Part shown: positions 3,851 to 57,206 of the stretch, in pieces
Layout: each line of letters begins with the position of its first letter
How positions within the stretch are numbered: the stretch's first letter is position 1
Virus record (IMG/VR): IMGVR_UViG_3300025769_000138
Coordinates: 1 to 57,206 of that record
DNA length: 57,206 nt
Direction: 5' to 3' (one strand)
From: a virus
The notes under the pieces: generated by a model
The model's database searches: none
Seen by the model: the letters and a program-made list of their open reading frames with translations, nothing else
What the model was told of the DNA's origin: nothing
Position numbers and translations under genes: made by a program

Positions 3851-5011
3851 TTGGCTTTAATAGATCCTAATCAATCTATTGTCTCTTCAGGTAATAGTTC
3901 TGTAACCCCTTTGTCTAGTGGAGCCACCTTCACAGGTACAGGAGAACGGAATGATTTTAGTCATGTAGGAGTACAACTAAAAACTGATAATCCAGGTACA
4001 TTATATTTTGATTTCAGTATTGATGGTACTAACTGGGATAGTACATATCCTGTAAATGGATTTAGAGTAGCAGCTAATATATCTGAATTTCACACTGCGG
4101 TTAAATTAGGTAGGTACTTTCGGGTTCGATTAGTTAATGATACAGGCGCACAGACATTCTTACGTCTCGCCACCTATTATGGAAACTATTTTGTTCCGTC
4201 TGTAGCACCTCTCAATCAACAGGCAGGATTAAACCAAGATGCTATATTTACTAGAGGCACTATACCCCAAGATGAAATACGTATAGGTAGACGAGCTGGG
4301 GCAGACGGCTGGACTAAATTCGGTTATAGGGATGACCTACAATCAGCTTCTGGAGAGCAAACTATATGGGCTGCTTCTGGTAATTTTACTCCTTTAACAA
4401 GTGCTGAAACATTTGATATTGCTTATGATGGTACGGCTGGTGGATCCACAGATGGTGCAGGTACTAATGGAGCTACAGAACTAGCCTTCTATTATATAGA
4501 TTCAGATGGGCTTCCTGCTATATCTACTCATACATTAGGTACTGATGGTAGTGATACTACTTCTTTTAGTGGCTTAGGTATTAATAGGGTTGCTGTTAGT
4601 GCAAGTGGATCTAATGATTATAATACAAGTGATATAACTGTAACAGCTACTACATCAGGTACGACTCAGGCTATTATACCTGCTGAGGGAAGTGTTACTC
4701 AGCAAGCTATATATTTTAATGGGTCTAATCATGATGCTATACTTAAGTACCTATTTTTTAATGTTAATAAATTATCAGGATCGAATCCTAAAGTTACTGT
4801 AAAAGCCTATGTTTATAATAGAGCGGTAGCCACTAGGTATGAAGTGTTTAGACATATTATTGATACTCAATCAGAGAATACTATAACTATTACTGAACCT
4901 GTAGGATTTAATTTATCCCCTACAGATGTGTTATACTTTACAGCTGATACAGATCAGAATGATACAGTGATTACTTTAAGATTTAGTTTAAATCAATACC
5001 AGAGGACTTAA
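3851..5011 (+). CDS. Putative virion appendage/tail protein (386 aa)
   Basis: This large, beta-rich, low-charge protein has features of phage appendages: an N-terminal domain (about 1-115) with FDFSIDGTNW, a middle Gly/Thr-rich region, and a C-terminal beta domain ending SLNQYQRT. The start is TTG, 4 bp after the previous stop. The stop overlaps the ATG of the spike gene by 1 bp, so the two proteins are probably made together and may assemble together. Tail role is inferred from composition and neighbours. Confidence 0.65.
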   Translation: MALIDPNQSIVSSGNSSVTPLSSGATFTGTGERNDFSHVGVQLKTDNPGTLYFDFSIDGTNWDSTYPVNGFRVAANISEFHTAVKLGRYFRVRLVNDTGAQTFLRLATYYGNYFVPSVAPLNQQAGLNQDAIFTRGTIPQDEIRIGRRAGADGWTKFGYRDDLQSASGEQTIWAASGNFTPLTSAETFDIAYDGTAGGSTDGAGTNGATELAFYYIDSDGLPAISTHTLGTDGSDTTSFSGLGINRVAVSASGSNDYNTSDITVTATTSGTTQAIIPAEGSVTQQAIYFNGSNHDAILKYLFFNVNKLSGSNPKVTVKAYVYNRAVATRYEVFRHIIDTQSENTITITEPVGFNLSPTDVLYFTADTDQNDTVITLRFSLNQYQRT

Positions 5012-31896: not shown

Positions 31897-33159
31897 TCAA
31901 CCTCTACCCCAAACATTATCCCAAGATCCACTAAGCTCCTTCTTAGTATACTCTGTAACTCTAGCTTCAAAGAAGTTAGCATGTTCTACAGAGTTTAACA
32001 TATCAGCTAACCAAGGTAAAGGATTATCTTTAACTCCATAGTTAGTTTTTAATCCTAGCTGTAGTAATCTTCTATCAGCTATATACCTAATATATTGCTT
32101 AACTTCTTCTTTAGTTAATCCCTCTACTCCACCTTGAGCAAAAGCTAAGTCAATAAACCTATCCTCTAGATCTACCATCTGCCTACAACATTCATAGATC
32201 TCTCCTCTAGTCTCATCTCCAGCAGCACTATTCCAGAACACTTTATTGTCTTCCACTAAAGTACGGAATACTTTAATCATAGATTCTACATGAAGGCTCT
32301 CGTCTCTACATTTATGTTCAGATAAGTTCGTTACTCTTATCCCGCTTTCGCTGCTTTATGTTACCATAAAGATCGGACTATATCATCACCGCTCTTGCAG
32401 TGTTAGGCGCTTCGGGCTACTTAGCCCTACTCTCTTTCGAGATAGTCTCTGAACCTTCCAATTCTTGCCATAACTGTCAAGCAAGTATTGGCTTGGCTGC
32501 TGATTGTCCTTCTCAGGAGTTTCCAGCAATTCACCTAATTTAAGGAGCACTCAAGCTTAGTTAATGCTCCAGCTCACTATCTGTCCCATACCTTTCATCT
32601 TACCAAACCTTTGGAAGTTCATAAGGATGGCAAAGGAACTGAACAATTGCATACCTTCAGTAAATGCTGAGTAGATAGCTACAGATTTAAGTAGATCTGC
32701 GGTAGCATAAGTACCATCTAGTCTAGGCTTAAGATCCACCATAGATTCTACATAATCATGCTTATCTTTCATCTCTTCATACTCTAGGAAAGCTTTATAC
32801 TCTAGCTCAGGCATACCTACAGTATCTAATAGGTGAGCATATGATAATACGTGGTTGACTTCCATAGCAGCAAAGGTAGTCATCATCATTCTAAGATCAG
32901 GATTCTTAAACACCTTGATGTAATTATCTAAGTATCCTTTAGCAACATCCATATCTGCAGTAACAAAGAACCTAAAGATCTGAGTCAAAAGATTCTTCTC
33001 TTCAGGAGTTAACTTTAGTTTCCAGTCTGATATGTCCTCTTTCATAGGTACTTCTGAAGGAAGCCAGAACATACTTTGTTGTGCTTCTGTAGCTTCAATA
33101 GCCCATGAGAAGTCTAAGGGTCTGAAGTAGTTTCTTTCTTGTAGTGCTTTACTTGTCAT
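31897..33159 (-). CDS. nrdB: Ribonucleotide reductase beta subunit, interrupted by a group I intron (335 aa when spliced)
   Basis: Exon 1 is 33159-32564 and exon 2 is 32308-31897. Joined, they give 1008 nt in one frame. The radical/metal centre is split: exon 1 has EVNHVLSY (Glu100, His103, radical Tyr107) and TEGMQLF (Glu168), while exon 2 begins with Arg-Asp-Glu-Ser-Leu-His, the second ExxH ligand pair. The intron interrupts an Ile codon (AT|T) just before that motif. Without splicing, translation stops two codons later. It pairs with NrdA just upstream. Confidence 0.93.
32309..32563 (-). ncRNA. Self-splicing group I intron in nrdB (255 nt)
   Basis: On the minus strand the core elements appear in order: CAATCAGCAGCCAAGC, then GTTCAGAGACTA, then GATATAGTCCGATC, the conserved core of T4-type (td/nrdB/sunY) group I introns. 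The 5' exon ends in T, the intron ends in G, and removal restores the NrdB frame. It has no open reading frame, so it is a small intron without its own homing endonuclease. Confidence 0.93.
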
Positions 33160-37286: not shown

Positions 37287-37498
37287 CAGTCTAATTCCTT
37301 CTTCATTAGCTTAAGACCTTCTATAAGAGCAGCTATAGATTCTTTTTCTATAAAGGCTACATGTGAGTTCTGGTTTAATCTTATACTACCTAATGCATCC
37401 TCTTTGGAGAGGTGTACGTAACCTACTCTAGATTGTCTAACCGCAACACTCTCAATAGGTCTAGTTTCTTCTTTATAATTAATCTGTAATCTATCCAT
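37286..37498 (-). CDS. Paralogous small protein A, NYKEETRPIES family (70 aa)
   Basis: It shares INYKEETRPIES near the N-terminus, and a C-terminal pattern FIEKxxIxxLIExLKLxK, with the gene at 40381-40596. This shows an old duplication within the leftward module. The order is a short beta part then a C-terminal helix. Function is unknown. The gene is coupled to the Cas4-like nuclease by a 1-bp overlap. Confidence 0.7.
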   Translation of the reverse strand: MDRLQINYKEETRPIESVAVRQSRVGYVHLSKEDALGSIRLNQNSHVAFIEKESIAALIEGLKLMKKELD

Positions 37499-38082: not shown

Positions 38083-39246
38083 TTATTTATTCCCCTCAAT
38101 CATCTTCTTATTAAGATCCATTAAAGCTTGAAGACCTACGGCATCAAAAGGATTTACTTTGGTTCCATCAGCATCAGAGCCTCCACTTACCATAATCTGA
38201 GGTAATCTTACTTTAGATAACTCTCTTGCTACACCAATAGCTGTATCCCTATCAAACTCAGCTTGCTCTCTAGGAGATAAACCAGCAGCTACCTTTAGTC
38301 TAGCAGCCTCAGCTTCAGCTTCACCTTTAAGGATGATAGCTTTCTTTTCTTCCTCAGCTTTAAGAGCTAACTGCTCTGCTACTTCCTTCTCCTTCTCAGC
38401 CTTAATAACAGCAGACTCTTTCTCTACTAGAGCTTTGTACTTCTCCCTAGCTACATTAGCCTTCCCTTGTTCCTCAGCTTTGATAGCATCTTGTTTAGCT
38501 TTCTTAGCTTCAGCTTTAGCAAGGATCTCTTCTTGCTCTGATTTCTTACGTGCAGAAATTAACTGATCTGTTTTATCATCAAAGTCTATTTCTTTGATAA
38601 CCAATTGGATAACATCTACATTATAAGTCTCGAAAGCAGAAGGTTCATTAATAATAGGAACACCATTCTTATCTAATTTTTTAGATACAACCCTAATGAT
38701 CTTAGAGTTACCTTCTGAATCAGTGATACTTTTTTCTTCGTACTCTGTAGCATATAACCCTTCTTTAACCTGCTCTAATACAAGGTTAATAAAATCTCCT
38801 CTACGAGTAGAGTACACTTCCTCTGCACCAAAATGAGTAGCAGATTGTTTAAGGGTAGCTGCTACTACCTGTCTGACTAGATCTGTATGAACTGCTTCAT
38901 AAGAACGGAACTCATTATGTAGTTTAAGTACATCTTTTTCTTTAGCTGGTAACTTAAATTTAATCTGTCCTGTAATAGCAGCTGTAGCTCCATCATTAAA
39001 TCGAACGGTGATAGGCTGATTATCAAAGCTATATGTATCTGATATCTTATAAGTAAAGATATCTCCAAAGTTCTGTAAATACATACCAGGATCTGTTTTA
39101 ACAGACATATTACCAGAAATAGCAGCCTGTTTTACTTGCATATAACCTGCATTATTAGTCTCAATTAAACTGGCTCCAGCAGTTAGTCCTACAACAACTG
39201 CAAGCCCTCCTATTACAATAGAAATATCTTTTAATATACTCATCAT
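38083..39246 (-). CDS. SPFH/band-7 (prohibitin-like) membrane protein (387 aa)
   Basis: An N-terminal TM helix (about 8-28, VIGGLAVVVGLTAGASLI) is followed by an SPFH domain (about 30-220) and a long Ala/Glu/Lys-rich coiled coil (about 225-330). This is the order seen in prohibitins, flotillins and HflK/C. Such proteins form large ring or cage assemblies on the inner membrane and can modulate proteases. Role in infection is unknown. A good ribosome site AAAAGGTGGA precedes the double ATG. Confidence 0.85.
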   Translation of the reverse strand: MMSILKDISIVIGGLAVVVGLTAGASLIETNNAGYMQVKQAAISGNMSVKTDPGMYLQNFGDIFTYKISDTYSFDNQPITVRFNDGATAAITGQIKFKLPAKEKDVLKLHNEFRSYEAVHTDLVRQVVAATLKQSATHFGAEEVYSTRRGDFINLVLEQVKEGLYATEYEEKSITDSEGNSKIIRVVSKKLDKNGVPIINEPSAFETYNVDVIQLVIKEIDFDDKTDQLISARKKSEQEEILAKAEAKKAKQDAIKAEEQGKANVAREKYKALVEKESAVIKAEKEKEVAEQLALKAEEEKKAIILKGEAEAEAARLKVAAGLSPREQAEFDRDTAIGVARELSKVRLPQIMVSGGSDADGTKVNPFDAVGLQALMDLNKKMIEGNK

Positions 39247-40380: not shown

Positions 40381-40596
40381 TTAAAGTTTCTCCTTTGCTA
40401 ATTTTAATGCTTCAATCAATGAGTCTATTTTATTTTTCTCTATAAAAATTTCTTTCCTATTTACCTCATCATAAAATAATGTACTAGTAGCAGATCCTCT
40501 AGATAGCTTTACTTTATACATGCCATCTATACAAACCTCAATACTTTCAATAGGTCTAGTTTCTTCTTTATAATTAATTTTTATATCTTCAGTCAT
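40381..40596 (-). CDS. Paralogous small protein B, NYKEETRPIES family (71 aa)
   Basis: This is a paralogue of the protein at 37286-37498, with shared INYKEETRPIES and FIEKxxIDxLIExLKLAK. It starts at 40596 (AAGAGGTGGTAGT before ATG; the frame is open a little further upstream). Its N-terminus overlaps the polymerase stop. It lies between polymerase and SSB-like genes, so both copies flank replication or recombination genes. Function is unknown. Confidence 0.65.
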   Translation of the reverse strand: MTEDIKINYKEETRPIESIEVCIDGMYKVKLSRGSATSTLFYDEVNRKEIFIEKNKIDSLIEALKLAKEKL

Positions 40597-42800
40597 ACTA
40601 CCACCTCTTCTTTCTCCATCCAATTATTACCGATCTCTAAATCATAAGTTAAAGGTACATTACACTCTAACCCAAATCTTTCTTCTATAACTCTAGGAAC
40701 ATTATCGAATACTTTTCTATAGATGTCAATCATTATTTTCTCTTCACCAGGAAAAACATCACAAGTAACCGAATCATGTACCGTAAGTATTACTCTAGAC
40801 TTTACTTTATGTTTCTTCATCAACCTCCATAGCTCTAACATTGTTACCATTACTATATCAAAACAAAAACCTTGCACAGGATAATTACATATCTGTGGAT
40901 AGCTATATATCCTACCTGATGCCAACCTCCTAGCATAAGGGAATGTATATATTCTTCCTGAAGGAGTTTGAGTCTTCTTATATTTAATAGCAGTCTCACC
41001 TAACTTCTTCTGCCATTCATCTATCCCATAGAAATACTCTAAGAAGTATTTAAAGTATTGTACTTGGGCTTCTGTACCAGACATCCCTCCATATAAAGGT
41101 TTGAAGGTATGTTCTTTAGCCTCTTGTCTCTTACCTTTAGGATCTATAGACTTATACGGATGTCCATAAGATTCTAAAGTATCCCTACTAAATGCATGAG
41201 CATCATTCCCTTCTGCTATAAACTTCATAGCTTGAGGACATTGACTTAATAAAGCTGCACCTCTAAACTCTAACTGCCCAAAGTCACAATCTAATATCTT
41301 ACCTCCTTCCCATCTAGATATAATAGCCTTCTTAACAGGGAATGTATTACCTCTAGGTAGATTATGGAAAGTAGAACTAAGCCTACCTGTTAAAGTAAGG
41401 CACTGATTATAATTCATATGCAGGAAACCATCTTTAGAATCTCTATTGATAGCACCCACAAAGTTATTCAAGTATGTACTAACAGAATTATATCTAGATA
41501 ACTTCGTTAAAAATAACTTAGCTAGCTCATTGATAGGCTTCTCTAGTAATACATCTATTGTATCTCCTCCTACTGAGAACCCTCCTTCAGCTGCATACTC
41601 CCAACTATAATATGTAACTCCTAATCCTGCCAACTCTTTAGTATCTTTATAATATACCCCTTCTCCTAGACAAGCCTTACATTTATTAGGAGTCTTATAT
41701 CTTTTAGCAGGTACAACTACATCTGGCTTAGTCTTATACTTTATAACTTTAGGTTTAGTGTATCTATAATATTGTCCAGATCCCTTACACCTTTCACATT
41801 GCTTAACTTCAGTCTTATATAATCTCTTAGCATTTACATTAAGTAATCTTTTAATTTCAGTAGGGGTTTTCCTATTATGGTATTTAGCCTTTCCTTTTCT
41901 TGGTCCCTCCTTTTCTGTACCTATATTAAAGGCTTCTACCCAAGCAGGTTTATCTAGTATCTTATACCCGAATACTATTTGAGATATGCACTCAGGGGAG
42001 TTAAGATTAATAGGAGAATCTCCCATAACATTCTTAGCTATCTTATATAGATCTCCCTCTAGTTCTTTCTTCTCAGCAACAAAATCTTTCTCTACTTTAT
42101 CTAAAGCTTCTTGATCTATATGACACCCAGCTCTCTCCATATCAGTGAGCATAAGAGTAAACTCATTCATAGGCTTGAGGATAGATAAGGTAGAAGCTAA
42201 CTCTTTATCTGTCTTAAGTAACTTCTTATGCACATTAAATAACTCGGCAGTAGAGAATATATCTCCCATACCATATGTATATAGATCATCATAAGGAACC
42301 TCATCTGTATTAAATCCTTTATCAAAATAATCTTTTAATATATCTAACTTAGCTTTAACCCCTCTTCTATCACAACATTCCTTAAGTGTGAAGTAGCCTT
42401 TACCTCTAGGCTTTGCTTTATTAGCTACATACTCAAAGGTCATAGTATCAAATATCTGTATATCATCAGGTAGTTTAAAGCCAGATTCTAGTATCCAAGA
42501 TAAATCAGCCTTAAGATTATGCCCTACTAAAAGCTTAGTCCTATCTAATACATCTTGTACAAATTGGAAGGAACCCTTCTTATACTCTTTACCATCTGTA
42601 GTATACTTATGTTGTATCTCTTGATGCTCAAAGAAGGCTCCTCCTGTAGTACCATCTGAAGTAGTTAATCCTAAGAATACTAGCTTATTACCCCGACAAT
42701 AAGGAGTACCATCTATTCTTTCTCCAGACCTACCTGTATAAGGGCTAGTATAAGTATACTTTCTTACAGACCATTCACCGTCTAATACTGTAACTGTCAT
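40593..42800 (-). CDS. Family A DNA polymerase with 3'-5' exonuclease and zinc-finger-like insert (735 aa)
   Basis: This is the replicative polymerase. Exonuclease motifs are LDGEW (Asp7, Glu9), HNLKADL (Asp99) and YGMGD (Tyr176, Asp180). Polymerase motif A is DCDFGQLEFR (about 504-513), motif B RQEAKEHTFKPLYGG (about 558-572), and motif C TVHDS (about 673-677). Unusually, residues 335-380 hold two CxxCxGxG knuckles (CERCKGSG and CKACLGEG), like a DnaJ zinc finger, between exonuclease and palm. Confidence 0.93.
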   Translation of the reverse strand: MTVTVLDGEWSVRKYTYTSPYTGRSGERIDGTPYCRGNKLVFLGLTTSDGTTGGAFFEHQEIQHKYTTDGKEYKKGSFQFVQDVLDRTKLLVGHNLKADLSWILESGFKLPDDIQIFDTMTFEYVANKAKPRGKGYFTLKECCDRRGVKAKLDILKDYFDKGFNTDEVPYDDLYTYGMGDIFSTAELFNVHKKLLKTDKELASTLSILKPMNEFTLMLTDMERAGCHIDQEALDKVEKDFVAEKKELEGDLYKIAKNVMGDSPINLNSPECISQIVFGYKILDKPAWVEAFNIGTEKEGPRKGKAKYHNRKTPTEIKRLLNVNAKRLYKTEVKQCERCKGSGQYYRYTKPKVIKYKTKPDVVVPAKRYKTPNKCKACLGEGVYYKDTKELAGLGVTYYSWEYAAEGGFSVGGDTIDVLLEKPINELAKLFLTKLSRYNSVSTYLNNFVGAINRDSKDGFLHMNYNQCLTLTGRLSSTFHNLPRGNTFPVKKAIISRWEGGKILDCDFGQLEFRGAALLSQCPQAMKFIAEGNDAHAFSRDTLESYGHPYKSIDPKGKRQEAKEHTFKPLYGGMSGTEAQVQYFKYFLEYFYGIDEWQKKLGETAIKYKKTQTPSGRIYTFPYARRLASGRIYSYPQICNYPVQGFCFDIVMVTMLELWRLMKKHKVKSRVILTVHDSVTCDVFPGEEKIMIDIYRKVFDNVPRVIEERFGLECNVPLTYDLEIGNNWMEKEEVVV

Positions 42801-42997
42801 CCTTTCTCCTTATATTTATTCTCAAAGTCTTGAGCTAACAACTTCCTTATACTGGCTTTAGTAACAGAGAACCTCCAAGCTAAATGCTTTACCAAAGAGT
42901 TTGGAGGTATCTGCTTCCCTGTAGTCATATAGTATTGCTGTCTCTTTATCTCAGCTTCTCTTAATAAAAACTTAATTGGTATTAAGATATTACTCAT
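42797..42997 (-). CDS. Small putative helix-turn-helix protein (66 aa)
   Basis: Residues about 32-58 (SLVKHLAWRFSVTKASIRKL) look like a helix-turn-helix, in a basic protein that ends KYKEKG. It is coupled to the polymerase by a 4-bp overlap (ATGA). It could be a small regulator or replication accessory. Function is not established. Confidence 0.6.
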   Translation of the reverse strand: MSNILIPIKFLLREAEIKRQQYYMTTGKQIPPNSLVKHLAWRFSVTKASIRKLLAQDFENKYKEKG

Positions 42998-43000
42998 ACA

Positions 43001-43930
43001 TTATCTTCCTAATATTACTCTAGCTTTCCAATCCTCTAGTTTAAGAACTGCTTCTTCAGGTAACCATACTACTGAAGCAGATTCTTCTAGCTTATTCTGA
43101 GGTTGTCTCCCTACATACTGAGAACTTTCTATTAATACTAGATACAGATCACAGAACTGATTCATCTGAGTGGATACAAAGCATCTATCTATAAACTCAA
43201 TATCGTTATCAGATACTTCATACCCTGATTCTTCTAATACTTCTTTCTTTACTGTATCAAAAGGAGAATCCTCTGAATCTAGACTACCTCCAAAAGCTGT
43301 TACCATGAACCTACCTATCGGAGGCTTATATTCATTGATTAATCCATATAGATCTGTATCTAAATCATAAAGAATAAAAGCTACAGAATCTTTTCCTAAT
43401 CTTTCAGCATAGTAATATCCTTGGTTCTCTTTAATCTTAAGAAATTTATTCCCTTTAGAAGTACTATAGATAGTCTCTATAGTAGAGTCATGTAGGTGAT
43501 CTAAAGCATGACGTATTTGAGTAGCACTGATGTCAAACTTCTTATCCTTTAATTCTATACAGTTGTGTTTACCAAAGCAAGCTGGGATATAGTGCACTCC
43601 TTCAGAGTTCCTATCTTCAGGTTTGTCATAGTAGAAGAACTTATAATTATTTATATTATCCCACTTCAAAGTCTCTACTATAGTTTCAATCCATTCCTCA
43701 TCTGTAGAATAATCTTTAATACCAAAAGATATAATACCAGGAAATACTTTTTGTAGCTTACTTATTCTAGTGGTAACATCATAAGGATTCTTCTCAGTCC
43801 CTGATTCTTGAATTGAACCTATGATTACCACAGGTGTATACCCTCTCTCTATAATCTCATTAATGATAGCCTCATGCCCTTTATGAAAAGGCTGAAACCT
43901 ACCTATAAATACTCCATATGGTTTACTCAT
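43001..43930 (-). CDS. Bifunctional NMN adenylyltransferase / Nudix hydrolase (309 aa)
   Basis: The N-terminal nucleotidylyltransferase has GRFQPFHKGH (about 10-19) and the second-site motif DISATQIRHAL (about 132-142). It joins ATP and NMN to make NAD+. The C-terminal Nudix box GGSLDSEDSPFDTVKKEV...EESGY (about 215-238) matches Gx5Ex7REUxEExGU with Lys for Arg, and would hydrolyse ADP-ribose-type compounds. The start at 43930 is chosen for GGAGTTGTTT before it. It overlaps the NAMPT stop. Confidence 0.93.
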   Translation of the reverse strand: MSKPYGVFIGRFQPFHKGHEAIINEIIERGYTPVVIIGSIQESGTEKNPYDVTTRISKLQKVFPGIISFGIKDYSTDEEWIETIVETLKWDNINNYKFFYYDKPEDRNSEGVHYIPACFGKHNCIELKDKKFDISATQIRHALDHLHDSTIETIYSTSKGNKFLKIKENQGYYYAERLGKDSVAFILYDLDTDLYGLINEYKPPIGRFMVTAFGGSLDSEDSPFDTVKKEVLEESGYEVSDNDIEFIDRCFVSTQMNQFCDLYLVLIESSQYVGRQPQNKLEESASVVWLPEEAVLKLEDWKARVILGR

Positions 43931-45179
43931 AAACAACTCCATCTTTAAATCTAGTTACAAACCTAGGATTATCTTGAATCCCTCTCTTAGAAGTTTTTCC
44001 TTGATCAGTGACAGGATCTTTATATACATCCCTTACTGTACCATCAGCTAACTCTATAGCACAGGCTTTAATAGCCATCTTATGTGTATCTCTATCTAGT
44101 TGTTGCATAAGGTATCCTCCACAACCAAAGGCAAAGTTCTCTGCTGAGTAACCTTTAGCTTGAGTAAAATCTAAGATAGCAGATATAGTTTCTTTAGTTA
44201 TACCATCCCCCCAAATAATTCTATATTTGTCAAATACTTTATAACCTCTAGCATTCCTACTAAAATCTACTTTGTTATCCTCTAGGATATGAATGATATC
44301 TTGGATTACCATAATAGGATCTCCGCTATCAGGTCTAATAACAAAGGTAGGATACTCATCTGATTCTACTTTATCCTTAAACTCTCCAGAAGAAATATAA
44401 TCTACAGCTTCATAAATATTATATGAGTCCATAACACAAGCAACCATAGGCTGTCCTTTATATAACTCTAGGTAATTATCATAGAACTTAAACTCATTCT
44501 CTCTACCCCAAGATGTAACAGTAGAGTGTTCACTAGCTGGAATAGAATAGCCTTCAGAATATTCTATGCAAGCAAAGTTGTCTGTGCCTTTGAACTGAGT
44601 TAAGTGTGCCAACCCACCAATCAAAGCAGACTCTACTGAGCTACTACCTCTATCTCCAAAGTTATGAAATGCAAAGTCCACACCATAGATATCACCTACA
44701 GTTTTACTCCAGTATTTCTCTAATATCTTTCTGACTTCATAAGCTCTAGTAGCTACTGAGATAGGATACCAGGTCTTCATCAGTAAAGTCTCTAGATAAT
44801 TTACTAACCAGTAACAATTAGGATCTGTATTAGTGATAAGCATAAGAGGCTCACCTACTTTAGCTAGGGTATTTTCAGGCAATGCTTTGATTTCTATAGG
44901 TAGGCTACCATTTAGTTCTTGATCTATATACTTCCACCCTTCAAAATTAAATGGCAGACCATGTTTAGCTGCTAAATATTCTGCTTCAATTGTAAATTCT
45001 CTCCAAACAGTATGTCCTTCAAGGTATGTTCTTAAATAATAGTCCAACCCATTAAAAACAATCTCCTCAAAGTCACCTCCTCTAGCTTCCATATAGGAAT
45101 AAATCTTTGTGGTTCCTTCTGGGTATTGCTTCCAGTGTGATAACTTATAGCTATCGGTTAATGTAATTATATTATTCAT
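43923..45179 (-). CDS. nadV: Nicotinamide phosphoribosyltransferase (NAMPT/NadV) (418 aa)
   Basis: It converts nicotinamide and PRPP to NMN. The family signatures are TDSYKLSHWKQYPEGTTKIY (about 8-27), FHNFGDRGSSSVESALIGG (near 170) and FVIRPDSGDP (near 285). It is shorter than human NAMPT (about 490 aa). With the next gene it forms a complete nicotinamide to NAD+ route. In phages such enzymes restore NAD+ removed by defence systems. Confidence 0.92.
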   Translation of the reverse strand: MNNIITLTDSYKLSHWKQYPEGTTKIYSYMEARGGDFEEIVFNGLDYYLRTYLEGHTVWREFTIEAEYLAAKHGLPFNFEGWKYIDQELNGSLPIEIKALPENTLAKVGEPLMLITNTDPNCYWLVNYLETLLMKTWYPISVATRAYEVRKILEKYWSKTVGDIYGVDFAFHNFGDRGSSSVESALIGGLAHLTQFKGTDNFACIEYSEGYSIPASEHSTVTSWGRENEFKFYDNYLELYKGQPMVACVMDSYNIYEAVDYISSGEFKDKVESDEYPTFVIRPDSGDPIMVIQDIIHILEDNKVDFSRNARGYKVFDKYRIIWGDGITKETISAILDFTQAKGYSAENFAFGCGGYLMQQLDRDTHKMAIKACAIELADGTVRDVYKDPVTDQGKTSKRGIQDNPRFVTRFKDGVVYE

Positions 45180-45180
45180 C

Positions 45181-45381
45181 TTAATCTCCTTCTAACTTAA
45201 ACCTATTAGTAACCTCTTCAGGTTGTTCTTCCAACATCTTTAAAGCACAGTCATCTCCTACTATTATATATCTCTTCTCAATCACTTTAATCATAGGAGG
45301 TTTATCTAAAATATTATTACATCCTGCTGTTATAAATAATACTACAAGAGTTAAACTAACTCCAGCTAAAAAATCACTCAT
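45181..45381 (-). CDS. Small lipoprotein (66 aa)
   Basis: The signal peptide MSDFLAGVSLTLVVLFITAG runs up to a Cys in a classic lipobox (ITAG-C), so the mature chain would be anchored by lipid. A second Cys (DDCALKM) lies downstream. It starts at 45381 after GGAGTAAAGAGA, a variant of the early-gene leader. It could be an outer-membrane lysis partner (o-spanin-like) or an exclusion lipoprotein. Function is inferred only. Confidence 0.65.
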   Translation of the reverse strand: MSDFLAGVSLTLVVLFITAGCNNILDKPPMIKVIEKRYIIVGDDCALKMLEEQPEEVTNRFKLEGD

Positions 45382-45703
45382 TCTCTTTACTCCATTCTGC
45401 TGCAAATATTTGTTTTAACCCCAGCTCTAGAACTTCAATGTAGGTTGTATCAATAAGCACTCCTCCATAAAATAAACCTTTAACTTCAGGCTGTTCAAAA
45501 GCTTTGACTACTTCCTTTATTAATTTATCTATAGGATACTCTTGTTTAATAGCATCTTTAATAACACTATTCCAATCTATAAGGATATCCTTCTCTACCA
45601 TATTAAGTATAATTACATCCCAAGGCAAACCTAATGTATCTTTATAATAAAATAACCCAGAGGCTACAGGTGTATTCCCTTCTGTCTTCCCAACTAACTC
45701 CAT
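45374..45703 (-). CDS. Hypothetical protein (109 aa)
   Basis: This mixed alpha/beta protein (NTPVASGLFYYKDTLGLPWD) has an acidic end. It lies between the lipoprotein and the helicase, overlapping the former by 8 bp. No function is recognised. Confidence 0.6.
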   Translation of the reverse strand: MELVGKTEGNTPVASGLFYYKDTLGLPWDVIILNMVEKDILIDWNSVIKDAIKQEYPIDKLIKEVVKAFEQPEVKGLFYGGVLIDTTYIEVLELGLKQIFAAEWSKENE

Positions 45704-45705
45704 AT

Positions 45706-47856
45706 CTAACTCCTCATTCTACTGTATTCTGGTTCCAATGTATAGAACACAGGCTGTTTAAATCCTGATAATTTATTCTTAGGTATATTAATACATCTCA
45801 CGTAATCATCTATCCCTCCTGTATCTTTAGGATCTTTCATCCCTACACAAAAAACAAAATCAGCTTCAGCAGCCTTGCCTGTTTTACTACCGTCTAATTC
45901 TTCAAATCCATAATGCATCTTACCTGCAGCTCCAGCTCCAGCTTGAGTAATAGCTAGAACTAAACAATTATACTTCTTAGATATTTCTCTAGCAGAAGTA
46001 TATAAAACCCTAAGCTTTTCATCAGATCTATTATACATACCTTTAACAGATAATTTATCTAGTTGATCTATGATGAGTACATCTACTTCATTCTTTGATA
46101 CATAAGTATCTAACTCTTCGATAGACATATTAACTTTATCCTGTACAAAGATATTGTCTTTAATAGGTTCAAATAAATCTTTAGCCAAATCTTTATTCTC
46201 TAGTAATTCTGATTTAACTTTACCTGTCCAACATCCTAGTCCTCTGACTTGGGTACGGATAGCAGGTTCCTCATTACATATAATATGAACTTTAGCTCCT
46301 TGTTCTAGCCACCCTTCTTCTCCGTACACTAAGGATACATAGAAGGCAGTCTTCCCACAATTACCTGCTACAGCTACTTTATTATTACGTCTTACTATGA
46401 TCCTTCCATGAGGCACTGTAACACAATATACTTTACCATAATAATATTCCTTAGACTTAGTAACACTTCTAACCTCTGAGAAATTCCTATTAGTTAATAT
46501 ACTTAAAGAATGTATATCAGAAAACTTATCTGATCTAGTATCTTCGAATACAGAATGATTACATTGCATACCAGACAAAGCACATATACTTGATACAACA
46601 TCTGCATTAAACTTTATTGTAGTGTCATACTTAATTCTAGTATCTGTTCTTCTAGTAGCATCCCAATAGGATAGTTCCTCTATAAACTTTTCTCCCCAAC
46701 GAAAATGTACTTTAGATAAGTCTATCCAGTCAAAGTTCTTACTAGGAAGTTCTTTGCATTGTACGTATATAGTAGTATAGTTTTCTTTAGTTTTGTCTTT
46801 AGTAATACTATACTTTAGTTGTGCTTCATTAAGTATATTTATAAGCCTGTCTACTTTACGCTGTTTCTTAAAAGAGAACCTAACTGTAAAGTGCCCTCTC
46901 TCTCCAGTACATCCTTTTCTTGCTGTACTCCCGTCAGCTTGGTATGCAATCAAGAATCTTTGATAAGGTGTTAGAGTAAAATTAAACCCTTTCTTACTGC
47001 CAGAATGAATGTATTTATAATTAGAAGGAATATTATCTTTTGCCTTAATTTTTACTAATTCATTTTTACGGTTCTTCAAAACCATATCATGATTAGGTGT
47101 TACCAAGAGATCTATCCTGCCTTGAGATTGTTTAAATGAAACCATGTCTCCTTGGTAATCATTCTCAATATAATCCGTAGGATACACAAAAGATACTTCT
47201 TCATGCTCATCTACTTGGGCTACCTTCTCTGTTCGATCAAGATCTTTGAACAGTTTCCACCCTTGTTCTGTGAGTATCTCAGTATCATCTGAATAGCAGT
47301 CTGGTCTAGCTGCTATAACTCCTAGCACCCCTTGATCTTTAGGTATATTACCCATAGCATCTTGTAGTACAGGAAGATTCCAAGTAAACCCATGCTTGGC
47401 TTCTACTTGCTCTAGCATTTCATATACATCTGTGGTCACATACTCTACTTCTTCTTGTAAGATATTACCAGATTTAATTCTATCAACAATAGATATTACT
47501 TCATCTATATCTCCACCAGATATTAATAGATCAGCAGCCTCTCGCTCTAGTTCTTCTATCCAAACTTTAGTTAGTATCTCCTCCCCAATATCTAATCCTA
47601 TATCCTCCAGCTGTCTTATAGTATTAAATAATTCTCCTATCTCTTTCTTAGTAGCAAGAGTCATAGTCGGATGATCTACTTTATACTTCTCCCATAATTC
47701 TGCTAGAGTTATATCCCTCTTATAGGTTTCATGTAAATCTTTTAAAGATTGGTACACTGATAATAATTTATCTGGAAAGAAATTATCAGAGATCTTATCT
47801 TTATGATCTTCATAGAAAGAGTTGTTTAATAATAGTTTAACTAATTCCTTGCTCAT
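45706..47856 (-). CDS. DnaB-type replicative helicase carrying an intein (716 aa precursor)
   Basis: Outer residues give a DnaB-like helicase. The N-terminal helical part (about 1-110) is followed by a RecA-like core with GVIAARPD...CGKTAFYV (Walker A, split at Asp186/Cys500), VDVLIIDQLDKL (Walker B, near 592-602) and AITQAG. After removal of residues 187-499 a 403-aa helicase remains. The matching primase is a separate gene (49135-49875). Confidence 0.92.
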   Translation of the reverse strand: MSKELVKLLLNNSFYEDHKDKISDNFFPDKLLSVYQSLKDLHETYKRDITLAELWEKYKVDHPTMTLATKKEIGELFNTIRQLEDIGLDIGEEILTKVWIEELEREAADLLISGGDIDEVISIVDRIKSGNILQEEVEYVTTDVYEMLEQVEAKHGFTWNLPVLQDAMGNIPKDQGVLGVIAARPDCYSDDTEILTEQGWKLFKDLDRTEKVAQVDEHEEVSFVYPTDYIENDYQGDMVSFKQSQGRIDLLVTPNHDMVLKNRKNELVKIKAKDNIPSNYKYIHSGSKKGFNFTLTPYQRFLIAYQADGSTARKGCTGERGHFTVRFSFKKQRKVDRLINILNEAQLKYSITKDKTKENYTTIYVQCKELPSKNFDWIDLSKVHFRWGEKFIEELSYWDATRRTDTRIKYDTTIKFNADVVSSICALSGMQCNHSVFEDTRSDKFSDIHSLSILTNRNFSEVRSVTKSKEYYYGKVYCVTVPHGRIIVRRNNKVAVAGNCGKTAFYVSLVYGEEGWLEQGAKVHIICNEEPAIRTQVRGLGCWTGKVKSELLENKDLAKDLFEPIKDNIFVQDKVNMSIEELDTYVSKNEVDVLIIDQLDKLSVKGMYNRSDEKLRVLYTSAREISKKYNCLVLAITQAGAGAAGKMHYGFEELDGSKTGKAAEADFVFCVGMKDPKDTGGIDDYVRCINIPKNKLSGFKQPVFYTLEPEYSRMRS
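46360..47298 (-). other. Intein in the Walker A loop of the helicase (313 aa)
   Basis: It starts at Cys187 (CYSDDTEILTEQGWKLFKDL) and ends VAVAGN before Cys500. Block B is TPNHDM (Thr253, His256) and block F is KVYCVTVPHGRIIVRR. The residue before the terminal Asn is Gly rather than the usual His. Residues about 295-460 resemble a degenerate LAGLIDADG domain (FLIAYQADGS and FIEELSYWDATRR). Until it splices out, the ATP site is split and the helicase is probably inactive. Confidence 0.9.
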
Positions 47857-50042: not shown

Positions 50043-50711
50043 TTAATATCCTCCTGTACATTTATTAGATTCTAGTAAAGTGAAAATCTTATCTGAATAA
50101 TCGTCTTCAGAATAAAAGTCTGGATTATATGTGTCTGATGTAGAACTTTCTTTAGATACATCAGGTAGCACAGACACTAACCTACCTATTAATGCAGATA
50201 AACTCTCTTTATCAATAGTATATCCTCTACCTAAAAACTTAACCATGCGAAGTAGAGATCCTGCACAATGCTCGTTTCTAATAGGTCTAGTATAAGTTAA
50301 CCTCTTAGTCTTTATATCTTCTAGAAACTCATCCAAATATACAACATAAGGTTTATTCTCTAATACATATAAACCTATTTGGTTAATAGTAAAATCAAAA
50401 TCCTCTATCATTTCTTTAGCATTCTGGTATGTCCACTTAGTAATAAGTTGGATAATAGATTCTCCCTTAATATAAAAACTAGTAGCATTATTGCTAGTGA
50501 AGTAACTATATGCTTTAGATTTTAAATACTCTTTAACTTCTTCTTGGATACCATATGTAGAGAAGATATCTATATCTTTAATATCCTCCCCTAATATATT
50601 ATCTCTAAGACATCCTCCTCCCACAAATACTTTACCTTGGAACTTAAGTAAAGTTGTCTTTACTACCATAGGTAGCGAGTCAAATAACTTATTAGCATCT
50701 ATCTCATTCAT
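50043..50711 (-). CDS. CCA-adding/poly(A) polymerase-type nucleotidyltransferase (222 aa)
   Basis: The active-site layout GGGCLRDNILG (31-41) then DIKDIDIF (Asp46, Asp48) is that of tRNA nucleotidyltransferases and poly(A) polymerases. DFDFTINQIGLY (near 104-115) continues the family pattern. It is short, with most of the tRNA-binding body missing. Neighbours encode an RNA-repair kinase and RNA ligase, so an RNA 3'-end role is likely. Confidence 0.75.
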   Translation of the reverse strand: MNEIDANKLFDSLPMVVKTTLLKFQGKVFVGGGCLRDNILGEDIKDIDIFSTYGIQEEVKEYLKSKAYSYFTSNNATSFYIKGESIIQLITKWTYQNAKEMIEDFDFTINQIGLYVLENKPYVVYLDEFLEDIKTKRLTYTRPIRNEHCAGSLLRMVKFLGRGYTIDKESLSALIGRLVSVLPDVSKESSTSDTYNPDFYSEDDYSDKIFTLLESNKCTGGY

Positions 50712-51189
50712 CTTCTTCTTCCTTTATTATAGTTATAGTTTTAAATCCTTCTTCTTCAGTAGGTATTTCAAAAGACTTTATCATACCTTCTAATACTGTT
50801 GGTGCTAAGTTCCTCCCAGACTTCCATTTATTCCTTCGTCTAATAGTATCTGGATCTACAATAAATACTACAGCATGGATGTCATATACAGTAGCAGGTA
50901 TCTTACTAAAGATCAACTTCCTTTTCTTCTTAGTAAGATTAGTTTGATCCCAGATAATATTATCCATATTAAAGACTGCTTCTTTAAGATCTTCATTCAT
51001 CTTAGACTGAGCTTTACCTATAAGATTATAGAACATTCTATTATAAGTAGAGCCTTTAGCTTTAACTTCCTCCTCTATATAATCATCTGTAGATAATACA
51101 GTATAATAGTTTAAGTCTTGTTCTTTCCTAAACCTAGTCTTACCAGAGTTAGGTACACCTACTAGGATATATGCTTGAGGTCTATCCAT
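50704..51189 (-). CDS. Polynucleotide kinase-like P-loop kinase (161 aa)
   Basis: P-loop GVPNSGKT (about 10-17), STDDYIEE (near 31-38), IIWDQTNLTKKKRK (near 77-90) and VDPDTIRRRNKW follow the kinase half of T4 Pnk. The phosphatase half is absent. The start at 51189 is chosen for GGGGAG before it. It overlaps the nucleotidyltransferase gene by 8 bp. With the ligase downstream it would heal and seal cut RNA. Confidence 0.8.
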   Translation of the reverse strand: MDRPQAYILVGVPNSGKTRFRKEQDLNYYTVLSTDDYIEEEVKAKGSTYNRMFYNLIGKAQSKMNEDLKEAVFNMDNIIWDQTNLTKKKRKLIFSKIPATVYDIHAVVFIVDPDTIRRRNKWKSGRNLAPTVLEGMIKSFEIPTEEEGFKTITIIKEEEDE

Positions 51190-51346
51190 CAATCTCCCCT
51201 TCCCTGTCAAAGTACGAAGCCAATTCATAAAGCATATGATAATCTAAATCTTCAACACATTCTTTACCCCATTCCTTTACAAATTGATTAATACTATTGT
51301 CATCAATATTATCCTCTACCCATTGTAATAATTCATCATGTGTCAT
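51182..51346 (-). CDS. Small acidic hypothetical protein (54 aa)
   Basis: It begins MTHDELLQWVEDNIDDNSIN and is acidic and helical. It starts at 51346 with GGGAGGGCTATAA before it. Its end overlaps the kinase start by 8 bp (ATGGATAG). No function is recognised. Confidence 0.65.
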   Translation of the reverse strand: MTHDELLQWVEDNIDDNSINQFVKEWGKECVEDLDYHMLYELASYFDREGEIDG

Positions 51347-51530
51347 TTATAGCCCTCCCTTCTGGTCTATCTTCTGGGTTTATATCTTGCAATGAATGTC
51401 GTGTTGCACAGTCATGACAAAATAAACAAGACTGGTCACCAGCATCCTTACAAATTTCTTCACGGCGGTATTCGAGTTTTGTCGATCCGCAATTACCGCA
51501 TATGACATGTAATCTAGCGTGTACCATCAA
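51336..51530 (-). CDS. Zinc-finger protein (64 aa)
   Basis: Several Cys in order, ICGNCGSTKLEYRREEIC and then CLFCHDCATRH, form a probable zinc ribbon. It starts at a double ATG (51530). It lies inside the RNA-repair cluster and overlaps the ligase end. It could be nucleic-acid binding. No defined role is recognised. Confidence 0.65.
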   Translation of the reverse strand: MMVHARLHVICGNCGSTKLEYRREEICKDAGDQSCLFCHDCATRHSLQDINPEDRPEGRAINDT

Positions 51531-52653
51531 TCTTCATCCTTAAATATTTATTATTAAAATCTTCAAACTTCTTATTAGAACCTAAGTAATTCTTCTCCAG
51601 AATATTATATAAAGTATCTAACATATCCCAATCTTCTTTATCTTCTATATCCCAGAACCTGAAGACTAAGAAAGTAGTCAGCTTATCTAACTTAGAATTT
51701 AAAGAGAACTCTTTCTTAGAATTAAAGATACTCTTGGCATTAGTTACTATGTCTGACATAGCATTAGCTAGAATAGCCATTCGATACTTAAAATCTTCTA
51801 TAAGATCTTGCATAATCTTTCTCTTCTCAGGATGTAGCTTAGGTAGTACATCATCTATATCTTCTGTAATAAATACATGAATAATATTCCTTAAGCTAGA
51901 TGTTATATTAACAAATCTATGTAGCTTAACATACCAATCAGTCTTAAGCTTTACCATCTGACCATCAGAATATCTTATGACTACTCCTTCTTCCTCTTCT
52001 CTATCTTTAATCCTAGCTAGATCATACATATCTCTAGTGTTAGGTACTACAGGTACTTCTCTTTCTTCTGCTAGTCTTCTCATATAATTATAACCTACGT
52101 ACATACCACTATTAATATCTCTAATAGCTAATAGCTTTAGATCATTCTTCTCATGGTGTAATACTATAGGTTCATCCTTATCCTCCCACTCAAAGATACA
52201 AGTAGTAGACGTACCTAGATAGGCTGCAAGATTTAGATACTCGGGTCTATACTTAACCCAAGCCTCTACCTTCTTACTTACATCTGTTATCCCTGCTTTA
52301 GTCATCCACTTCCATTCACCTTCTAACCATACAGGAGTAACCATGCTACCATCTAGCTTATCTAACACTACATGAGCTGGATCATCTATACATTTACTAT
52401 GCATAAGATTATATTGAGTAAATTCCTTCTCATCTATATTGAAGAACTTGTGGAAAGGTCTTCTGATTAAGAAGTTATTCTTATTAAATACTAATCCTCT
52501 ACATTCTAAATCATATTCATTATTAAATGTATCTCGATCCTGATGTGTATATATTAATACTTTATAATCTTCTTTATCTACTAGTTTGATATAAGGATTA
52601 TCTTTTACTTTAGGATATATATCCTCTAGTTTAAATAATAAAGGGAATGACAT
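51514..52653 (-). CDS. rnlA: RNA ligase 1-type (T4 Rnl1-like) RNA ligase (379 aa)
   Basis: Motif I KLDGSM has the nucleophile Lys at residue 99, the same number as in T4 Rnl1. Later motifs are CIFEWEDKDEPIV (near 149-161), EEEGVVIRYSDG (near 218-229) and VKLKTDWYVKLHR (near 232-244). Rnl1 seals 5'-phosphate and 3'-OH RNA ends and repairs tRNAs cut by anticodon nucleases. It is grouped with a kinase and a nucleotidyltransferase. Confidence 0.92.
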   Translation of the reverse strand: MSFPLLFKLEDIYPKVKDNPYIKLVDKEDYKVLIYTHQDRDTFNNEYDLECRGLVFNKNNFLIRRPFHKFFNIDEKEFTQYNLMHSKCIDDPAHVVLDKLDGSMVTPVWLEGEWKWMTKAGITDVSKKVEAWVKYRPEYLNLAAYLGTSTTCIFEWEDKDEPIVLHHEKNDLKLLAIRDINSGMYVGYNYMRRLAEEREVPVVPNTRDMYDLARIKDREEEEGVVIRYSDGQMVKLKTDWYVKLHRFVNITSSLRNIIHVFITEDIDDVLPKLHPEKRKIMQDLIEDFKYRMAILANAMSDIVTNAKSIFNSKKEFSLNSKLDKLTTFLVFRFWDIEDKEDWDMLDTLYNILEKNYLGSNKKFEDFNNKYLRMKIDGTR

Positions 52654-56766: not shown

Positions 56767-57147
56767 TTAATCCTCCAAACTATCAAAATAATCTACAATA
56801 TAAGGCTTAAGTTCTTCGAGTTCCTCCCTTAGTATGTCTTGCAATAATATAGTAGCTAGTGTTTCACTATTAATATTCTCTAAGGTGTAGCCTCTATCAT
56901 GAGCAAGACTACTAGATGTCTGCAAACTAGGATCTTCCTTGCTTAAGAATTTTATTGCATTACTATAGTACACTATATCAGCAGAATGTATGTAGTTTTC
57001 TGTAAACCATTCAGTAAAATTATCAACACAAGTATCACCATCATAATAATCTAACGCTGTGTCAATGTCTTCTGTATAGTCGCTTAAGTATTTTGAGTTA
57101 TTAAATGCTTCAATTAATTTTTGTTTTTCTTGTGTGTTATTAGTCAT
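56767..57147 (-). CDS. Hypothetical acidic protein (126 aa), spans the terminal repeat
   Basis: The protein is acidic, with repeated Asp/Tyr-rich segments (DYTEDIDTALDYYDGD) and a C-terminus ending VDYFDSLED. No domain is recognised. Its first 56 codons repeat at the start of the window with two amino-acid changes (Lys19 versus Glu, Tyr24 versus His). It starts at 57147 after AAAGGATAAAACT. Together with the left copy it marks the closure point of the map. Confidence 0.75.
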   Translation of the reverse strand: MTNNTQEKQKLIEAFNNSKYLSDYTEDIDTALDYYDGDTCVDNFTEWFTENYIHSADIVYYSNAIKFLSKEDPSLQTSSSLAHDRGYTLENINSETLATILLQDILREELEELKPYIVDYFDSLED

Positions 57148-57206
57148 AGTTTTATCCTTTCATTATGTAATTATAGTTTTATTTTACAGTATATATTTTG
57201 TATAAT
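56979..57206. repeat. Right copy of 228-bp terminal direct repeat
   Basis: Identical to 1-228 except at 57078 (A versus G) and 57093 (T versus C). Both differences alter amino acids of the gene encoded here. Confidence 0.95.

Follow-up and report, generated by a model that had tools for sequence, protein, structure and literature searches.

We have found that the genome of an uncultured virus of bacteria, 57,206 bases long (the single IMG/VR virus record IMGVR_UViG_3300025769_000138, referred to in its whole length as the window) carries two neighbouring minus-strand genes predicted to form a phage salvage module for nicotinamide adenine dinucleotide (NAD+), most likely a counter-defence pathway of the NARP2 type that keeps NAD+ up. 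One gene encodes a NadV-like nicotinamide phosphoribosyltransferase (NAMPT), the other a nicotinamide mononucleotide (NMN) adenylyltransferase (NMNAT) fused to a Nudix domain; NARP2 itself we take to be NAMPT plus NMNAT. A preliminary description of this DNA had claimed a complete path from nicotinamide through NMN to NAD+, encoded by adjacent, overlapping genes and accompanied by a Nudix domain. This claim is supported: both genes lie where they had been placed, on the minus strand, adjacent and overlapping, with Pfam, NCBIfam and PHROG matches far beyond chance, and the arrangement matches the NadV+NadM salvage described in PMC9503650. The wider interpretation in that description is partly supported: that the window pair would counter Thoeris, DSR or similar defences is likely by analogy, whereas a removal of ADP-ribose or signalling molecules by the Nudix domain is conjecture. 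The elements of the pair are the following.

43923..45179, minus strand: gene for the NadV-like NAMPT, 418 amino acids (aa), C-terminus shortened (Pfam, NCBIfam, PHROG, AlphaFold, Foldseek)
43001..43942, minus strand: gene for the NMN adenylyltransferase–Nudix fusion, 313 aa as the longest frame (Pfam, Foldseek)
43499..43942, minus strand: NMNAT domain, residues 1–148, with motifs GRFQPFHKGH (14–23) and ISATQIR (138–144)
43004..43393, minus strand: Nudix domain, residues 184–313 (Pfam NUDIX, fold matches)
43220..43288, minus strand: Nudix box, residues 219–241, with E234, E237 and E238 kept, D225 in place of E and K233 in place of R
45186..45191, minus strand: AAGGAG, ribosome-binding-site-like in sequence, 6 nt ahead of the NAMPT start
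43928..43930, minus strand: likelier start codon of the NMNAT–Nudix gene (second ATG, at 43930), with GGAG at 43937–43940

The NAMPT was recognised by Pfam NAMPT_N (E-value 2.2e-29) together with NAPRTase (1e-39), by NCBIfam PRK09198 (463.7 bits, cut-off 405) and by PHROG 448, nicotinamide phosphoribosyl transferase (3.4e-126). Its AlphaFold model has a pLDDT of 94.9 and a pTM of 0.91, and the top Foldseek match is human NAMPT (9iwt; E-value 9.7e-51, TM score 0.94 on the query). Its residues for substrate binding and catalysis are intact: F174, R177, D200, H218, R282, D325 and R363 are invariant over 37 aligned NAMPTs; the first three align with F177, R180 and D203 of the Xanthomonas (Xcc) enzyme, in chain numbering less 14 for the tag. 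D203 of that enzyme is reported to hold the amide of nicotinamide, with a serine in its place in nicotinate enzymes (PMC10907753). Because D200 aligns with D203, nicotinamide is the expected substrate of the window NAMPT, though one library names the family nicotinate phosphoribosyltransferase.

The NMNAT–Nudix protein matches Pfam CTP_transf_like with 32.5 bits (cut-off 21), while NCBIfam NMNAT matches reach up to 50 bits, all under their cut-offs; the NMNAT domain also matches archaeal NMNAT structures. Over 40 comparison rows R144 is found in all 40, R15 in 39, and H20 and H23 each in 38. In the methanobacterial NMNAT of M. thermautotrophicus the counterparts of R15 and H23 are R11 and H19, and structures of mutants of both these residues have been solved. 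As judged from the alignment, the active site of the NMNAT domain retains its residues. In the NMNAT tree the window domain groups with VGG-type phage proteins at 98/83 support, a placement that the program flags with a warning that long branches meet.

The two genes overlap by 20 nt when the longest frame is taken and by 8 nt (ATGAGTAA) when translation starts at the second ATG, which has its GGAG 6 nt upstream. The fusion itself, as given in the preliminary description, is confirmed, with two refinements: the true protein is probably 309 aa long, starting from the second ATG, and the Nudix part is divergent and gives a weak match. The pair is flanked by a DnaB-like helicase gene (45706–47856) and a DNA polymerase gene (40593–42800) in the early, minus-strand half of the genome; since it sits among DNA-replication genes, NAD+ would probably be made while phage DNA is being copied. 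The region holds 31 promoter-like sites (35.9 in shuffles, thus no excess) and five terminator-like sites (2.6 in shuffles), and operon boundaries are therefore not defined by them. We infer the enzymatic activities of the pair, which follow from the established families, as well as its joint transcription.

The proposed sequence of events starts with host NADase defences, which split NAD+ into nicotinamide and ADP-ribose (ADPR). NAMPT would join the nicotinamide to phosphoribosyl pyrophosphate, giving NMN, and the NMNAT domain would adenylate NMN with ATP to NAD+. Nicotinamide would thus be the recycled half and, unlike in NARP1, ADP-ribose would be discarded; its removal by a Nudix hydrolase is conceivable, though this is a guess. 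The Nudix domain of the window protein may still cut an ADP-ribose-type nucleotide diphosphate, or may be a regulatory or near-inactive remnant. Phage NAD+ pathways have been linked to counter-defence in three reports (PMC11984713, PMC12774641 and PMC13232231), and a NadV plus NadM pathway in particular was proposed to counter NADase effectors (PMC9503650). By analogy, a counter-defence use of the window pair is likely, and we consider that the pair is real and probably works. It hints at pressure from NADase-type defences on hosts of the phage group to which the window virus is assigned below.

In its early region the window carries a possible RNA repair set (50043–52653, minus strand) composed of a poly(A) polymerase-head protein, a polynucleotide kinase-like P-loop protein and a T4 Rnl1-type RNA ligase. 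Elsewhere, sets of RNA ligase, polynucleotide kinase and poly(A) polymerase-head genes mend tRNA cut by host defences; by analogy, the genes seen here would fit a counter-defence theme without proving it. In Ruegeria phage RpAliso an RNA ligase and a polynucleotide kinase lie within 2 kb of an NMNAT–Nudix gene, with NAMPT just beyond.

A NAMPT gene beside an NMNAT–Nudix gene is a widespread, published phage arrangement, to which the window pair adds another member. According to PMC9503650, every NadM-bearing phage has NadV, and NadV is present in ∼2% of small phages against 22% of medium and 33% of jumbo phages. Relatives of P0002 occur in 1,907 of 50,697 phage records. We also took the 80 IMG/VR loci nearest to the window NAMPT among the matches listed, which are not a random sample, and counted an NMNAT gene if it was at least 120 aa long and inside the flanking sequence retrieved, at most 5 kb. 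Such a gene was present on the same strand as NAMPT in 73 of the 80 loci (71 with a Nudix-like motif), and contig ends may explain some of the seven misses. The leading gene is that for NMNAT in 70 of these 73 loci and that for NAMPT in three, so that the window has the rarer order.

Among the matches listed, the closest NAMPTs (53–60% identity, tblastn) are on IMG/VR contigs L103, L104, L105 and L106, which make one supported group. L104 has the NAMPT-first order and the overlap of the window, and ends before the Nudix part. L103 and L105 encode NMNAT–Nudix proteins of a different type, with RFQT..LHKGH and a VGG Nudix. Of those window proteins that were compared with the four contigs, only NAMPT, NMNAT–Nudix and one tail-protein stretch matched. 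Within L103, the nearest of the four by its NAMPT, a radical-SAM protein, RlmN/Cfr-like by eye, is encoded between the NMNAT–Nudix and NAMPT genes (4045–4986). Ochrobactrum phage vB_OspM_OC (L094, 909–7209) has NMNAT–Nudix, NAMPT, PnuC and NadR within ∼7 kb.

The other NAD+-rebuilding pathway with a NAMPT-fold enzyme is NARP1, and the window NAMPT could be read as its Namat, joining nicotinamide to ADPR-pyrophosphate. In favour of this is Tyr356, which stands at the first adenine-stacking aromatic position of the Namat clamp helix; the helix is described as GS-X-phi-X-phi-X-phi-TRD with aromatics at positions 3 and 7 (PMC12774641). The window sequence is GGYLMQQLDRD, with GG instead of GS, Gln at position 7 and position 3 alone aromatic. 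All five NARP1-type proteins compared have GS and an aromatic residue at position 3, and four of the five have one at position 7. An aromatic residue at position 3 is also present in the Ochrobactrum phage NAMPT (the one other of the NADM-linked set), and L106 has Trp. The tree gives Namat proteins a fully supported group of their own with the window NAMPT outside it. An Adps relative was not found in the window record, while all four control records were positive; an earlier search for Adps by Pfam PF13793 lacked the sensitivity to be used, missing one of three known positives. On motif, tree and the Adps result the Namat reading was rejected, and we regard it as very improbable indeed.

Several findings weigh against a NARP2-type counter-defence module in the window. 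The NAMPT has 418 aa, while all 20 comparison proteins have 457–593 aa. At the R position of the Nudix box the window protein has K, a residue seen in none of the 40 comparison rows (R in 38, D in two), and no Nudix-domain match at an E-value of 0.01 was found among 10,839 open reading frames (ORFs) of 267 loci. Finally, a scan of part of the window proteins brought up no further gene for handling NAD+ or ADPR. The shortfall of the NAMPT is mostly C-terminal, with the loop before the catalytic histidine also shorter. The three nearest relatives among the matches listed, L103–L105, are short as well (425, 437 and 446 aa). Because they are short in the same region and group with the window NAMPT (100/95 tree support), the short form seems to be a trait of this clade rather than damage. 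A broken or truncated gene was also considered and was rejected, three close relatives being short in the same region and the model being confident.

The Nudix domain is the less regular part of the module. It is detected by Pfam NUDIX with 29.0 bits (cut-off 21.1), and its box follows the canonical GX5EX7REUXEEXGU except at position 7, where D replaces E, and at position 15, where K replaces R. At position 7 the 40 comparison rows have E in 18 and D in none. Some Nudix hydrolases are known without the canonical box (PMC5389931). With a profile of 40 NadM-type domains from phages the window domain scores 10.5 bits, while the leave-one-out minimum is 80.1. Pairwise Nudix scores are weak throughout (12.9 bits for the best NadM-type domain), some NadM-type domains scoring slightly above Escherichia coli NudF, which is outside the top ten. 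Sequence matches in PDB are mostly ADP-ribose/ADP-sugar pyrophosphatases and related Nudix proteins, and these too are weak, with E-values from 0.004 to 0.05 (best 0.0038) and 20.4 bits for the top PDB Nudix protein; the ADP-ribose pyrophosphatases score 18–20 bits, at the edge.

The structural model of the NMNAT–Nudix protein is moderate (pLDDT 71.1, pTM 0.50), with low confidence in residues 149–184 and 203–213. Its top Foldseek match is full-length bacterial NadM (2qjo, E-value 3.6e-13), followed by ADP-ribose diphosphatases, NUDT14 and NudK. The NadM match is favoured by the way the model was made, since the alignment behind it consisted of NadM-type proteins. In VIA-align many Nudix families tie. 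The domain is, by these comparisons, of the Nudix fold and too divergent for a substrate or a lineage to be assigned from sequence.

One possible though less likely reading is that the domain is a remnant, either inactive or regulatory, for example an ADPR/NAD+ sensor tuning the synthase. The non-standard box and the 10.5 bits, far under the leave-one-out minimum of the 40 NadM-Nudix members, point this way; the core glutamates of the box, kept in all three cases, do not.

It is quite unlikely, in our estimate, that the domain is itself an anti-defence part, destroying ADPR-based immune signals or ADP-ribose while the synthase refills NAD+. Such a role has been proposed for phage Nudix proteins generally (PMC9503650); ADP-ribose and ADP-sugar pyrophosphatases make up most of the weak PDB sequence matches, and ADP-ribose diphosphatases occur among the best fold matches after NadM. 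However, a proline after the Nudix box, common to ADP-ribose diphosphatases according to PMC5389931, is missing from the corresponding loop of the window protein in the PDB alignments, and K replaces R in the box. Besides, Nudix enzymes cut diphosphates, and the literature consulted gave no precedent for one opening the cyclic ADP-ribose molecules 2′cADPR or 3′cADPR. As stated in a 2026 preprint (PMC13232231), no mechanism for degrading these two molecules was known before RyDEP, which has a RyR-domain fold, unlike Nudix.

A bolder version makes the protein a NadM-like enzyme of its own: the NMNAT would have been joined to an ADP-ribose/ADP-sugar pyrophosphatase-type Nudix domain independently of NadM, the Nudix half removing ADP-ribose-type products or signals of NADase defences and the other half rebuilding NAD+, a two-in-one counter-defence. 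Two clades of ADP-ribose pyrophosphatases, those of E. coli ADPP and of Synechocystis NadM, are distinguished in PMC5389931. An independent origin of the fusion was considered and not adopted, given weak pairwise scores everywhere and the long-branch NMNAT tree. Other proteins with the same fusion were found neither in IMG/VR (best 80 of 409 matches), phage records and plasmids, nor in one genome scan (best 80 of 462) and the 10,839 ORFs of 267 loci, searches that would miss distant relatives. We rate this version as decidedly improbable.

The window virus is, from its predicted proteins, a distant member or a close relative of the HMO-2011-type group of phages, because its DNA polymerase and large terminase subunit (TerL) match those of the group and the polymerase has a weakly matching DnaJ-type insertion. 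The best matches of the polymerase (735 aa) are HMO-2011-type phages at 33–37% identity, and TerL matches nine of nine HMO-2011-type records at 44–51%. A DnaJ insertion in the polymerase is described as typical of the group (PMC9038755), and from the core-gene list in that survey the window has TerL, helicase, primase and the DnaJ-type polymerase. No near DNA relatives of the early half (33000–57206) were found among the 50,697 phage records, nor close relatives in an IMG/VR scan with the window polymerase. The genome is terminally redundant and looks complete, since its first and last 228 bases (1–228 and 56979–57206) form a direct repeat with 99.1% identity (two mismatches).

Protein searches with NAMPT and with NMNAT–Nudix found neither gene in any of nine HMO-2011-type records, while three of three control phages were positive for NAMPT and two NadM-bearing controls for NMNAT–Nudix. 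The gap between helicase and polymerase is ∼2.9 kb in the window; in eight of the nine related genomes the two genes are adjacent or separated by one or two very small ORFs, the ninth being CRP-345, whose helicase lies outside the stretch examined. Because both genes were not found in the nine genomes, the pair has, on present sequences, either been gained relative to known HMO-2011-type members or been lost from these. In the 2022 survey of the marine HMO-2011-type group (PMC9038755), no words starting with nicotin, nudix or nad occur in the main text.

This distribution bears on a purely metabolic reading, in which nicotinamide salvage would serve phage nucleotide synthesis by enlarging the NAD(P) pool and would have no defence role. 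Nucleotide supply is indeed a theme of the genome, with ribonucleotide reductase, ThyX and a deoxynucleoside monophosphate kinase-like gene also in the early region. Yet a general need would predict a wider presence than none in nine related genomes, and two of these nine, CRP-207 and HMO-2011, carry ribonucleotide reductase genes in the stretches examined. The reports cited above, moreover, tie phage NAD+ pathways to counter-defence. We regard the metabolic reading as unlikely and prefer NARP2-type counter-defence.

Around the pair the following features were recorded.

40593–42800, minus strand: family A DNA polymerase, with a weak match to the DnaJ central domain (Pfam)
42797..42997, minus strand: 66-aa ORF separating the pair from the polymerase, without a family match in Pfam and PHROG
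45181..45381, minus strand: 66-aa upstream ORF with ATG start; by eye like a lipoprotein, with a Cys after a short hydrophobic N-terminus; no family assigned in Pfam and PHROG searches
45374..45703, minus strand: 109-aa upstream ORF; no Pfam family, a single weak PHROG of unknown function

Farther along, the helicase gene (minus strand) has an in-frame insertion within its ATPase domain, intein-like in look; the scores of 16.4 bits with Pfam Intein_splicing and of 18.8 bits with TIGR01445 stay below cut-off, and the PHROG matches in the inserted part are to non-helicase families. The small chain of ribonucleotide reductase (31897–33159, minus strand) is in two ORFs, covering Pfam positions 1–189 and 201–281, split by a group I intron at 32354–32630 (Rfam RF00028, 105.4 bits). 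An imperfect direct repeat of ∼55 nt (89%) lies between early genes, at 37439–37492 and 40534–40588. An SPFH/Band 7 family protein (38083–39246, minus strand) adjoins tRNA-Glu and tRNA-Pro genes; in the crAss-like phage cr126_1, too, the NARP1-type genes have a Band 7 gene in their vicinity.

Compared with known systems, the window pair has in common with NARP1 (Adps plus Namat) a NAMPT-fold enzyme that would rebuild NAD+ from defence products, and differs in having no detected Adps and no Namat clamp motif. With the bacterial bifunctional NadM (NMNAT/ADP-ribose pyrophosphatase; PDB 2qjo and 2r5w) the second protein shares the order of NMNAT followed by Nudix in one chain, and NadM is its best full-length fold match (VIA Z 16.1). 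Still, identity is 16–18%, whole-chain superposition is poor (root-mean-square deviation 13 Å), the NadM-type Nudix profile misses the window domain and the NCBIfam NadM model gives 49.3 bits against a cut-off of 397; the protein is NadM-like in layout only. The nearest system is the NARP2-type NadV + NadM pair, with neighbouring NAMPT and NMNAT–Nudix genes in a phage genome, as in Mesorhizobium phage Cp1R7A-A1, Acidovorax phage ACP17, Rhizobium phage V1VFA-S and Caulobacter phage CcrBL10. The window differs from it by reversed gene order, overlap, a shorter NAMPT and a divergent Nudix domain, the compact NAMPT and the odd Nudix domain offering natural variants. With 57 kb against 118–221 kb in the four named phages, it would extend NARP2-type NAD+ salvage, found mostly in medium and jumbo phages, to a small HMO-2011-type genome.

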